From contig JAHHGV010000005.1 of NCBI GenBank assembly GCA_019359695.1, forward strand, positions 1-64,000: DNA of 64,000 nucleotides, written 5' to 3'. Source of the stretch: Brasilonema angustatum HA4187-MV1. Lineage in GTDB: Bacteria > Cyanobacteriota > Cyanobacteriia > Cyanobacteriales > Nostocaceae. The position numbers were made by a program, and so were the translations under genes. The stretch's first letter is position 1. Every line of letters begins with the position of its first letter. Below are positions 26,263-50,978 of the stretch, in pieces. The notes beneath the pieces were generated by a model. The model ran no database searches. It saw only the letters and a list, made by a program, of their open reading frames with translations, and was not told the DNA's origin.

Positions 26263-26461
26263 AATTTACTCCTTAAAGTTTTAGTTTATTTGCTTAGTAC
26301 AACTTGTCATTAATAGGAGTCGGAAATCAAAATTATGCTAAGACAGGGAAATGAATTATCTCTTAAATCTATTCCGAGCACCTTTTATGTCTTGTTAGTT
26401 CTCAATTTATTCCCAAACAGCACTGCTCTACATCTGAGAAATGTCATCTTCACAGCATTAC

Positions 26462-26540
26462 AGCAGCAATCACTCGTTCTAAAATTTTGTAGAGGACTTC
26501 TGGATCAGTCCGACTTGCATCTATCGGCGAGAATTCCACA
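26462..26540 (-). pseudogene. leuA: Displaced 79-bp fragment of leuA
   Basis: The stretch matches 29363-29440 inside leuA with six or seven differences and in the same orientation. It encodes no product. It abuts and overlaps a truncated PIN-domain gene, pointing to a recombination junction. Confidence 0.85.
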
Positions 26541-26664
26541 ATTCATCAAAAGCAGTTTGTGCCATCACCAGTTGTTGGTCTTGAACGAATATGCGTAGCT
26601 GATGACGAACGGTAGAGCCTTCAGCTATAAATGCGATCACACTATTGGTGTCGAGATTAACCAC
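26521..26664 (-). pseudogene. N-terminal fragment of a PIN-domain protein
   Basis: From a GTG the frame reads VVNLDTNSVIAFIAEG, then STVRHQLRIFVQDQQLVMAQ and TAFDEL before running out in the leuA fragment. LDTNSVIAF carries the first PIN Asp, and the later Glu (FDE) is present. PIN proteins are Mg-dependent RNases, often VapC toxins. The C-terminal acidic residues are missing, so it should be inactive. Confidence 0.6.
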
Positions 26665-28245: not shown

Positions 28246-29868
28246 TCATTTATGAACTGGTGCAGAATCTGAAGCATGAGACTTCTCTGTATCCCTTTGC
28301 AAAAATCGATAAAGCCGATTCAGTGCATTCATGTGAGCGTAGGCTGCTGCGACTACAATATCAGTATCAGAAGCTTGTCCAGAGAAAATGCGCTCCTGAT
28401 ATCGTAAGCGAATTGTAACTGTTCCCAGAGCATCTATTCCACCAGTCACAGACTGAACGGAAAACTCTATCAGTTGGTTGGGAATCTGCACAACTCTATT
28501 GATTGCTTTGTACACAGCATCTACTGGACCAGTTCCTACTGCTGCATCCGTTGAAATTTCTCCGTTGGGAGTTACAACTGTGATCGTTGCAGTCGGACAG
28601 GTGCAATCACCACAGGTGACTTGGACGTGTTCGAGTTGAAAGCCTTTGTCTACTTGAATTTGCGTTTCATCCCGAACAATCGCCTCTAAATCCCAATCGG
28701 ACATCTCCTTTTTCTTATCAGCAATTTCTTTGAACCGCATAAAGGCTTTGTTGAAATCTGCCTCGCTCAACTCAAACCCCAATTCCTGGAGTCTGGTTCG
28801 CAAAGCATTCCTTCCAGAGTGCTTACCCAAAATAATGCTGTTTTCAGCAAGACCGATGTCAGCAGCTTCCATAATCTCATAAGTCTGGCGATGTTTGAGA
28901 ATTCCATCTTGGTGAATTCCAGATTCATGAGCAAAAGCATTTGCTCCAACGATCGCTTTATTCGGTTGAACCACAATTCCTGTGAGTTGTGAAACCAAAC
29001 AAGAAGTTTTGTAAATCTCTTGCGTGTTGATGTTCGTCAAAGGTGCATCGCAATCAACCGCACGACCAAAGTAGGGATTAAAATGAGGTTTACGAACTTG
29101 CAATGCCATGACAATCTCTTCCAGCGCTGCATTTCCGGCTCGTTCACCAATTCCATTCACTGTACACTCGACTTGACGCACGCCATTTTCAATTGCTGTC
29201 AGGGCGTTCGCACTCGCCAAACCCAAATCGTTTTGAGTGTGAACCGAAAGAATAACTTGATCAATATTAGGCACATTTTCTTGCACACCCTGAATCAGCG
29301 CCGCCATGTCTTTGGGTGTGCAGTAGCCGACAGTGTCAGGAATGTTGATCGTGGTTGCACCTGCAGCAATCACTCGTTCTAAAATTTGGTAGAGGAATTC
29401 TGGATCAGTGCGGCTTGCATCCATCGGTGAGAATTCCACATCCTCTACAAAAGACTTGGCATAGGCTACCATTTCTTGGGCGATCGCCATAACTTCACTC
29501 CGAGATTTTTTCAACTGGTACTTCAAGTGAATATCTGAAGTTGAAATGAAAGTATGAATTCTCGGATGAGCCGCTTCTTGCAATGCTTCAGCCGCAGCTT
29601 GAATATCTTGCCGAATTGCTCTTGCTAAAGAGCAAATGATCGGTCCACCCAACACACCAACTTGTTGAGCTATTGTTTTGACAGCTTCAAAATCTCCGGG
29701 ACTCGCTACGGCAAATCCGGCTTCAATCACATCAACCCCTAAAAGAGCCAGTTGATGAGCGATCGCCAGTTTCTCTTCCACCAGCAGCGTTGCGCCTGGT
29801 GACTGTTCACCATCTCGTAATGTTGTGTCAAAGATAATGACTCGGTCTGGTTGAGATTGAATGCTCAT
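28246..29868 (-). CDS. leuA: 2-isopropylmalate synthase
   Basis: 540 residues. LeuA condenses acetyl-CoA with 2-oxoisovalerate, the first step of leucine synthesis. The start is the ATG before [21 protein letters not shown], with GAGG just upstream; the extra upstream frame belongs to the neighbouring element. Visible motifs are the metal site [27 protein letters not shown] (HxH-like) and the regulatory C-terminal domain with the [11 protein letters not shown] stretch. An IsrB element lies immediately upstream in the same direction and may have replaced the native promoter. Confidence 0.96.
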
Positions 29869-29933
29869 AAAACCTCGCGATAGATTTGGAAACCCAGCGG
29901 CTTTAGCCCTGGGAGGAAAAATCAACGGGTGCT

Positions 29934-30983
29934 TTAGCGCCCGTCACTGGTCTTCGCAATCCGCCATGAATTGTAAGACAAAAACTTACAATCTGCGGGT
30001 AATGCGTTTTGACACAATCGCTTACCAGTATCAAGACTGTGCAAGCTAATTATTTTTCTATCTGGGTCTTTCTTCGTTGGAGATTCTTGCCAACCTCCGA
30101 CGTAAGAAAATCCATATTTGGGGTGTCTAACAACAGAACCACGCTTTAAACCTGCGCTCATAGTTCCACCGTATCGAGAACGGATATGCCCAGCAGCGTG
30201 TTGCAATCTGTGTAACTGACGCCTATGAAACTCTAAGGGAATAATTTCAATTAATGATGTATTGTCAGGTTTGGCATGTCCTTCAACATACCAATTAGCA
30301 AGCGCCCACGAGTCAACACAATGAGCATCGAACTTATTAGAAAGTTTGTTTTTGGATTTTTTCAGTCCTAGCTCTTGCCTTGTCTGGTAAGTATCAAAAC
30401 CTGAGCGAGTTTCAAGATTAGCGAGTTGTCGTAATTCAGAATAAAACCATTGTTTCCCTACCTCTAGCGGTGAAAACATCACGTTGTATTTACACGCACC
30501 TTTCCAGGTTTTAGCTTTGATATCTTCTACTACAAATACAGAGAGAGGAAACAACGAGGCGAGCCATTTACAAATACGCAACTTCCATTGCCATCTGGCT
30601 TTAGTGGAAGGTGGTAATTTAACTTTGTTGGCTAACCGATTACGTCGATTTTGACGGCATGGGGTTTTGCGAAAACGTCTGGCTCGCCGCATATTCCGAC
30701 GAATTTCTACATGATTTTTAACCCAGTCCACAGCATGAGTTTGAATATTCAAATAAGTATACTTTCGGGATTTAACTGTAAATCCTTCGCGTTTTGAGCC
30801 TGGATCAATTCCAATTGCTATTGGCTGAGTGTTTTTATTGGATGACTCAATATTTAATCGAACACAAAATACTCCTTTTTTAAAAAATGGCGTTGCTTTA
30901 CCTGACTTAATCCAACGCCTTGCTCTACTTGGCGTTGTTGGCATTAAGGGACAATTGCTTTGGTCTACTACTGGTACAAACAT
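29934..30983 (-). CDS. isrB: IsrB RNA-guided nickase (RuvC-only relative of IscB)
   Basis: IsrB is the HNH-less relative of IscB, an omegaRNA-guided DNA nickase ancestral to Cas9. In these 349 residues the PLMP motif is 12-15, RuvC-I Asp60 is in [11 protein letters not shown], an Arg-rich bridge helix spans about 93-117, and RuvC-II Glu153 is in VVEDIKAKT. RuvC-III is HCVDSWALA with His221 and Asp224. Only about 68 residues separate RuvC-II from RuvC-III, so there is no room for an HNH domain. The residue after 230 would be the target-recognition domain. The frame has no damage. Its 3' end lies in the element's terminal hairpins. Confidence 0.88.
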
Positions 30984-31215
30984 TGTGATAAGCCTCTTGC
31001 GAGTATATATATCCCTTCGACACTGACCAACGGAGAGGAGAAGAACTAGGGAGGCATTCTTTCGTCCGTTTGAGCTGCCATGCTAGTTGGTTCAGTTTGC
31101 TTGTCTAGACACTGGTTTAGTCTTGAATTAAGAAGTAGGCGTTGCCTCCGCTTTCAAGCCCCGAGCCTTTAGGCAGGGGTCAGTGACCACTGTCTCCCGT
31201 GGTATCAATAAAGGG
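30984..31215 (-). ncRNA. Candidate omegaRNA of the IsrB element
   Basis: IscB/IsrB guide RNAs are transcribed from just upstream of the protein, with the guide at the 5' end from the transposon flank. Read on the minus strand, the stretch holds a CCACGGGAGACAGTGG hairpin, then CCCCTGCCTAAAGGCTCGGGG, a stem typical of these scaffolds, and several further GC-rich stems before the ATG. The guide should lie near 31205-31225. Folding was by eye. Confidence 0.65.
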
Positions 31216-31237
31216 ATTGTTAGACATCTTTTGAATA

Positions 31238-31261
31238 TTGTATACAAAAAATTGTATACAA
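31238..31261 (+). promoter_or_regulatory. Double GntR-type operator
   Basis: Two perfect TTGTATACAA palindromes (31238-31247 and 31252-31261), centres 14 bp apart, lie 25 bases before the GntR regulator start. They fit the T-n-GT-n-AC-n-A consensus of this family and suggest autoregulation. Confidence 0.8.
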
Positions 31262-31285
31262 TATAAATTATGAACTTAATAAATT

Positions 31286-31963
31286 ATGAACTTAAATGAT
31301 TTAGCAGCCAATGTGCTGCAACAACAACGCAGTACCCCAGATTTGATTGCAGACGCTTTGCGAGAGGCGATCGTACGCGGAATTTTTCAGGAAGGACAAT
31401 CCCTCAGACAAGATGAAATTGCGACTCAGTTTGGAGTCAGCCGCATTCCTGTGCGGGAAGCTTTACGTCAGCTTGAAGCCGAAGGATTGGTGAAGCTGCA
31501 TCTCAATCGGGGAGCAACGGTATCAGCACTTTCTCCAACAGAAGCGCAAGAAATCTTCGAGATTAGGAGTGCATTGGAGGTGAAAGCAATTCAACTGGCA
31601 ATTCCCAAGCTAACTGCAGCAGATTTAGAAAAAGCCACTGTCATTTTAAAACAGACAGACCAGACAACTGACGCAGGAATGCTTGCGAAACTGAACTGGG
31701 AATTCCATGAAACACTTTATAAAAGTGCTGAACGTCCTCGGCTACTAACGATGATTAAAACTCTACACCTGAATGTAGACCGTTATGTGCGGCTTCAGAT
31801 GAGTCAAATGGATTACTTAGAGCGTTCTCAAAAGGAACACTACCAATTATTAGAAGCTTGTCAACAGCACGATACCAAAGCTGCTGTTAAGCTACTCAAA
31901 AAACACATTGACACAGCAGGAGAGCAGCTAGTTGCATACTTGCGACAAAATATTCACAGCTAA
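31286..31963 (+). CDS. GntR-family transcriptional regulator (FadR/FCD type)
   Basis: 225 residues. The N-terminal winged helix-turn-helix is classic GntR: ADALREAIVRGIFQEGQSLR, then DEIATQFGVSRIPVREALRQ and LEAEGLVKLHLNRGATV (about 20-85). The C-terminal FCD ligand domain contains EIRSALEVKAIQLAI and the metal-site histidines in WEFHETLYKSAERPRL and the KKHIDTAGEQL end. The effector is unknown, probably a small carboxylate. The double palindrome upstream points to autoregulation. Further targets are not visible here. Confidence 0.9.
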   Translation: MNLNDLAANVLQQQRSTPDLIADALREAIVRGIFQEGQSLRQDEIATQFGVSRIPVREALRQLEAEGLVKLHLNRGATVSALSPTEAQEIFEIRSALEVKAIQLAIPKLTAADLEKATVILKQTDQTTDAGMLAKLNWEFHETLYKSAERPRLLTMIKTLHLNVDRYVRLQMSQMDYLERSQKEHYQLLEACQQHDTKAAVKLLKKHIDTAGEQLVAYLRQNIHS

Positions 31964-50579: not shown

Positions 50580-50815
50580 CTGCCTAATCCACGGATTGCC
50601 CAAAACATTTTGTTACATCGGGGTAAGCCTGGAGCGGAGGAACCAAGTTTGGGGCTAATCTCATAGGAGAGCGAAGAATGAAAAATGAAGAATGAAAAAA
50701 GACAAAATTACTCCGGTTTTTTTTCCTGTCTTTTTTTTTCTTTCTTCTGTTCTGTGAGAGGGACATCTCTCAGTCCTAGCCCGTCAGCTAACTTCGTCGG
50801 CATTGAGAGGAGACT
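50580..50815 (+). promoter_or_regulatory. c-di-AMP riboswitch (ydaO/yuaA class)
   Basis: The conserved blocks of the class appear in order: GGAGCGGAGGAACC (50631-50644), GGGGCTAATCTC (50651-50662), a variable stem, then CCGTCAGCTAACTTCGTC (50781-50798) followed by GGC and AGAGGAGAC. The variable loop is swollen by GAAGAATGAAAAATG-type heptamers and a T-rich tract. ydaO riboswitches turn genes off when c-di-AMP is high, usually in osmotic or cell-wall control. A hairpin at about 50912-50942 (GGAAAAG / CTTTTC, AGACC / GGTCT) lies between it and the gene and could be the expression platform. Confidence 0.85.
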
Positions 50816-50978
50816 GAACGAGCCGCATTCTTATCAGTAATGCATTATTCTCGTCAGTGTCCTTGGCTGGTATCTGTGCGCTTCGTTGTACCTGCCCTTG
50901 ACTACGAGGAAAAGACCATATTACCTTTTCTTCCGGTCTGTTGAGGCAGGAAAAATCGCTATATGGTGAAGTTCAACT

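Follow-up and report, generated by a model that had tools for sequence, protein, structure and literature searches.

How can an element encoding an RNA-guided protein persist between the ribosome-binding site (RBS) and the start codon of a host gene, and what would it draw from that position? The question is raised by a stretch of 64,000 nucleotides from the cyanobacterium Brasilonema angustatum HA4187-MV1 (contig JAHHGV010000005.1, positions 1 to 64,000; hereafter "the window"), in which an element carrying isrB, whose product is of the type from which IscB and Cas9 are presumed to descend, is inserted exactly between the Shine-Dalgarno (SD) sequence and the ATG of leuA. The reading that we favour, with a probability of roughly 0.65, is that the host promoter supplies the guide RNA of such a start-site element, that the downstream gene stays translatable and that restored sites are nicked. 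The features on which the argument depends are the following:

29869..31187, minus strand: whole IsrB element, 1,319 bp, delimited by empty sites in 6/6 other genomes of the genus and by a conserved 5′ edge
29937..30983, minus strand: isrB, 349 amino acids, RuvC without HNH; the open reading frame (ORF) is 30983..29937, with the stop codon reaching to 29934
30984..31187, minus strand: putative omegaRNA scaffold, HEARO-like, based on covariation and a sub-threshold Rfam match; its first stem starts at the element's first base
31188..31207, minus strand: putative 20-nt guide in host DNA, the native leuA 5′ untranslated region with the SD sequence GGGAG; its length is taken from the IsrB of D. 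thermocuniculi (DtIsrB)
29865..29868, minus strand: ATGA, by its position at the empty site both target-adjacent motif (TAM) and the start codon of leuA with the base that follows it
28249..29868, minus strand: leuA, 2-isopropylmalate synthase, 540 amino acids, open, HMGL-like from residue 9 and with LeuA_dimer
29869..29890, minus strand: right end of the element with the candidate replacement RBS GCGAGG, from pairing to the anti-SD sequence

The ends of the element follow from the six other genomes of the genus (G001 to G006), in all of which its two flanks abut, with one base missing at the joint in G005; the element is therefore 29869..31187, without a target-site duplication. With a slash marking the insertion point, the empty junction reads GGGAGACAGTG/ATGAGC in G001, G002 and G004, GGGAGACAATG/ATGAGC in G003, GGGAGACAGTG/ATGAGT in G006 and, one base shorter, GGGAGACAGT/ATGAGC in G005, while the occupied junction has the element's own end before leuA (GCGAGGTTTT/ATGAGC). 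The initial annotation had given the span as 29880-31225, which these coordinates replace; its position next to leuA stands, but the separation of RBS and start codon by the element had gone unnoticed.

Among 19 leuA loci from genomes of the family, 18 junctions were readable and all 18 were empty; this genome is the only one examined with an IsrB element at leuA. The distance from GAG to ATG at the readable empty junctions is six bases in 16/18, eight in the distant L129 and five in G005, and the gene starts with ATGA in 17/18 (ATGG in L131). The base missing from G005 (L138), the closest relative, lies exactly at the insertion joint, and this junction is the only shortened one of the 18; the loss may be an excision scar, an escape or chance.

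The flank adjoining the element's 5′ edge is the putative guide. Over its 20 bases, the guide length of DtIsrB in the accessible text of PMC9581776, it agrees fully with the empty sites of G001 and G004 and differs at 1 base in G003, 2 in G006 and 3 in G002; the ungapped comparison with G005 gives 16/20 mismatches because one base is missing there. That the flank might hold a native guide had been proposed before, near 31205-31225; the putative guide does lie in the flank, although the proposed interval is about 17 bases off and overlaps 31188..31207 by only 3. A TAM of the form NTG or NTGA is found 3′ of the target by position alone: ATGA stands there at the empty leuA site of 6/6 genus genomes, and the empty sites of a second locus (G002 and G005) fit as well. 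According to the same accessible text, DtIsrB cleaves ATGA-TAM targets, and CwIsrB and DsIsrB, both cyanobacterial, take an NTG TAM (PMC9581776). An NTG TAM covers bacterial start codons, a link not made in that text.

The same observations invite a reading in terms of domestication, with IsrB and its omegaRNA retained as a host gene controlling leuA or its alleles: the guide is the leuA RBS region, the element is located between leuA and the divergently oriented gene of a regulator, and neither the protein nor the RNA appears damaged. We consider this very improbable, as the 18 empty junctions indicate that the arrangement is not conserved, and a search of the genome itself with 14 guide bases plus ATGA finds, within 2 mismatches, solely the element's own junction. 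No further guide target stood out in that search, four places being found at 3 mismatches and three with the reversed control.

The position ahead of a start codon recurs in relatives. We defined a start site as an ATGA that follows the element and begins an ORF of 90 or more amino acids (codons), and took the ATGAs in the flanks of a first set of loci as background. This set comprised 50 cyanobacterial loci, from which those with partial protein matches (L097, L098, L106, L109, L110, L111, L113 and L115) were left aside; the remaining 42, together with the window and a second copy on contig C13 of the same genome, made 44 loci, of which 39 were kept with both ends (dropped were L038, L053 and L084 without a right-end ATGA, L072 at a contig end, and L073, interrupted and with no right end found). 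Start sites account for 24/39 of these, compared with 166/1316 flank ATGAs (one-sided Fisher test, 3e-12). After removal of the repeats L043, L061 and L070, the 36 remaining sites divide into 20 starts, 10 non-coding sites and 6 inside ORFs. A second cyanobacterial set (40 regions, 23 repeating earlier loci and 17 left) yielded 12/17 start sites (P = 8e-8 against the background of the first set).

The same habit is seen in Poribacteria, whose IsrBs are about 50% identical: starts make up 11/20 sites, or 10/19 without the duplicate L090, against 110/657 (P = 5e-4). These sites remain from 28 loci after exclusion of L079, L080, L089, L091 and L100, in which the expected position lacks an ATGA, and of the truncated L104, L105 and L112. 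In Poribacteria L087, the element precedes a gene whose N terminus resembles, by eye, the DNA polymerase beta clamp. The ORF after the IsrB element of L092 reads, also by eye, like an IS200-type Y1 transposase, possibly an autonomous pairing, so the downstream ORFs are not all host genes.

Ten of the proteins encoded downstream were compared with Pfam; nine have a family match within the first 23 residues and one is without a match. The families include LeuA, a class-I tryptophan/tyrosine (W/Y) tRNA synthetase, RimM, orotidine monophosphate (OMP) decarboxylase, SSB and SelO. The W/Y tRNA synthetase, read as TrpS, is the only copy found in its genome (G321, 98% complete), and the same holds for the OMP decarboxylase, read as PyrF, in G158 (99% complete); as genes of this sort have to be expressed, their transcription and translation should either run past the end of the element or begin there.

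At leuA, the element's right end appears to replace the RBS that it displaces. With what we take to be the anti-SD sequence, the predicted pairing energy is -6.5 kcal/mol for the replacement site compared with -7.4 kcal/mol for the native site. Across relatives, SD 4-mers occur upstream of the ATGA in 25/53 right ends versus 60/876 flank ATGAs, and the mean pairing energy is -2.9 versus -1.4 kcal/mol (P = 0.005).

Several points weigh against the reading that we favour. Right ends share descent, so these SD P-values are optimistic, and 28/53 right ends are without an SD 4-mer. Start sites and non-start sites show no difference in SD strength (P = 0.62), nor do the native left flanks, taken together, exceed background in SD content (n = 49, P = 0.33). 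The RBS swap, clear at leuA, therefore cannot be presented as a general rule. Non-start sites amount to 16/36 and 5/17 in the two cyanobacterial sets and to 9/19 in Poribacteria, and the copies in Acidithiobacillus (L076) and on a viral contig (L116) are off starts, with ORFs of 23 and 21 amino acids. Because an ATGA served to locate the right end, the ATGA rule is proven solely where empty sites are available, at two loci. Further, the genome has a second leuA (G000:C78:108358-109926, 71% identity), and the copy bearing the element may therefore be dispensable. Finally, the enrichment of starts could reflect the purging of other insertions.

This last point leads to the most serious competing explanation, namely ordinary insertion at TCAT/ATGA combined with purifying selection, in which starts are merely tolerated and the purines of the right end serve the transposase and not the ribosome. 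The lack of a difference in SD strength between start and non-start sites speaks for it, as do right ends ending in CCCATTTTTCTG, which have no SD sequence and of which several are nonetheless at starts. It accounts less well for sites outside ORFs, where starts are over-represented even relative to non-coding ATGAs (20/30 versus 72/472, P = 2e-9, odds ratio 11), and for the fact that the sole trpS-like and pyrF-like genes found in two genomes tolerate the element. We judge it to fall somewhat short of an even chance; this estimate and that for host-supplied guide RNA overlap, the two not being exclusive.

Supply of the guide by the host would involve the following steps. The element would insert next to TCAT/ATGA through a Y1 TnpA acting in trans and, at a start codon, would end up correctly oriented behind a host promoter. 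Host transcription would then provide guide, omegaRNA and isrB message together. Read-through would reach the downstream gene, whose translation would start from the site in the element's right end. Upon excision, or when an empty allele is encountered, the ribonucleoprotein would recognise the restored RBS-ATGA junction, nick the non-target (coding) strand and drive repair from the occupied copy. In the region 29600-31600, no terminator-like site was found (mean 1.9 in shuffles), and sigma-70-like sites were about as frequent as expected by chance (5 versus a mean of 3.0 in shuffles).

A broader version of this proposal would make IsrB elements start-codon specialists, in which NTG(A) recognition would make bacterial start codons the homing site: each copy would use the promoter of its host gene to transcribe a guide to the RBS-start junction of that same gene and would supply a replacement RBS in return, so that even single-copy essential genes such as trpS could carry it, and empty alleles would escape by junction change only. 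We rate this generalisation as somewhat less likely than not. The one-base junction deletion of G005 may show the escape of an empty allele, given that 16/20 guide bases mismatch there, compared with 0-3 in the remaining five genomes.

The proposed mechanism presupposes a functional protein. The ORF encodes what by sequence and predicted structure is an intact IsrB, of about 350 amino acids and with a PLMP-type N terminus, a bridge helix and a split RuvC; nickase function is predicted. RRXRR (Pfam) matches at 1.3e-34 and, among the nine matches listed against solved chains, 8dmb (DtIsrB) is best, over residues 3-325 (E = 5.8e-38). An alignment of 26 sequences shows D60, E153, H221 and D224, the catalytic set of the RuvC family, to be invariant, together with R95, R99, R100, R102, R103 and R105 of the arginine-rich bridge helix. 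Only 67 residues separate E153 from H221, too little room for an HNH domain, and the NCBIfam IscB model for RuvC plus HNH (NF040563) covers only residues 5-156 and stays below its cut-off (100.2 versus 175 bits). With the AlphaFold2 model (mean predicted local distance difference test score 71.3, predicted template modelling score 0.62), Foldseek placed 8dmb first (E = 1.4e-23, 29% identity in the structural alignment), and neither this comparison nor the 26-sequence alignment revealed a hidden HNH or a damaged RuvC. In DtIsrB the TAM is read by R323/Q326 according to the accessible text of PMC9581776; in the alignment with 8dmb, with a numbering offset that we derived, R322/Q325 take these places. 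Close relatives (E ≤ 1e-100) are present in 33/388 genomes drawn from the order.

Directly upstream of isrB, with the putative guide at its 5′ edge, lies a region that covariation identifies as an omegaRNA. In 29 relatives, the sequence before isrB can be aligned as far as a sharp edge, which reads GTCACTRACC in most of them. Of the 42 pairs in the consensus structure, 29 show compensatory changes on both sides; 96.6% of the alignment cells are paired. The covariation score is 0.419, whereas shuffles give 0.203 and sliding the structure gives no more than 0.12. Four of five measures are higher than in every one of the 500 shuffles, the exception being further pair types (58 versus 56.5). Folded by itself, the single sequence has an unremarkable energy (z = -0.48); this lent no support, and covariation was used instead. 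Rfam HEARO (RF02033) matches 31187..31005 over the whole model (1-211) with 34.9 bits (E = 4.3e-5), below the gathering score of 83, and an Rfam scan of the window at gathering level accordingly missed the omegaRNA. We therefore treat it as a divergent relative and do not file it as a member of RF02033; among ten comparison loci, 5/5 IscB loci (104-146 bits) and 0/5 IsrB loci pass the gathering score. The initial annotation had proposed an intact IsrB without HNH and an omegaRNA upstream of it, and both proposals hold; the covariance-model search that it suggested did find a HEARO match at the element's edge, albeit one below the gathering score. As a separate observation, L047, L056, L062 and L068 carry repeat-like insertions of tens of bases (six in L068) within otherwise conserved omegaRNAs.

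An element with these parts could still be a decaying insertion, inactive and immobile at this locus. The genome holds one other full copy, on C13, which abuts an ATG start ahead of a gene read as a glycosyltransferase and has an empty site in G002 and G005; as the two proteins are 82% identical, there has been no recent burst. Moreover, 29869..31187 contains no tnpA and no other ORF of at least 80 amino acids, and the element is thus not of the autonomous IS200/IS605 kind. Decay nevertheless seems improbable to us, since the RuvC, bridge-helix and TAM-contact residues are kept, the omegaRNA fits the consensus pairs and a Y1 transposase has six matches elsewhere in the genome. A candidate standalone RNA copy on C74 was rejected, being merely a 79-bp left-end remnant. 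In two genus genomes (L041 and L043), the element stands before the same radical-SAM-like gene with unlike left flanks; either the upstream DNA was exchanged once the element was in place, or insertion happened there twice.

The protein, the RNA and the TAM each belong to a known kind, and the family of the element, which is of ISC/IS200-IS605 type, is known as well. As described in the accessible text of Hirano 2022 (PMC9581776), the OMEGA (obligate mobile element-guided activity) nickases DtIsrB, CwIsrB and DsIsrB likewise have about 350 amino acids, PLMP, a bridge helix and RuvC without HNH, with an upstream omegaRNA, a 5′ guide and an NTGA/NTG TAM. DtIsrB differs by its 29% identity and by an RNA of 284 nt including a 20-nt guide (PMC9581776), compared with the 204-nt scaffold here, counted from the element edge to the isrB start. 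The HEARO RNA shares a match over the whole model with its 5′ end at the element edge, and differs by the sub-gathering score. Weinberg, in 2009, is said to have placed HEARO integration before ATGA or GTGA. Among IscB elements of the same genus (22 regions, L256, L257, L009 and L010 without a match, the other 18 read by eye only), 3/18 copies (L244, L245 and L258) have a similar right end followed directly by a GTG or ATG start, one of them GTGA; they differ in having HNH and about 400-460 amino acids, and the other 15 copies either lie away from starts or could not be resolved. The peel-and-paste TnpB/IS605 elements are alike in taking the guide from the flank, in a TAM equal to the transposon target and in homing to the empty site; TnpB is a double-strand cutter, however, whereas IsrB is a predicted nickase with the guide on the 5′ side of its RNA. 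No description of start-codon insertion or RBS replacement by IsrB or IscB was met in the accessible parts of the literature covered (including PMC9581776, PMC9755519, PMC13180657 and PMC12286853), which did not include the three most relevant papers.

As natural guide, TAM and empty site can be read from one locus and its relatives, the natural target, nicking and homing become testable, which bears on the question of IsrB's role for its transposon. The start-codon habit also offers a concrete explanation of how a guide that has to be transcribed from outside comes by a promoter, and of how these elements can do no harm.

On the far side of the guide lies one further feature:

31286..31963, plus strand: divergent transcription-regulator gene, GntR-like from reading its N terminus

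Two TTGTATACAA palindromes, likely operator sites, stand between this gene and leuA at window positions 31238-31261 and are also present in the upstream regions of relatives; gene and palindromes together suggest that the captured promoter may be under regulation. On the minus strand at 26459-26554, some 1.7 kb downstream of leuA, lies a fragment resembling leuA residues 139-170 (75% identity, 2 stops), and a similar leuA fragment lies near the leuA of G005. Elsewhere in the window, a c-di-AMP (cyclic di-adenosine monophosphate) riboswitch (RF00379) was detected at 50587-50817 on the plus strand with 58.5 bits.
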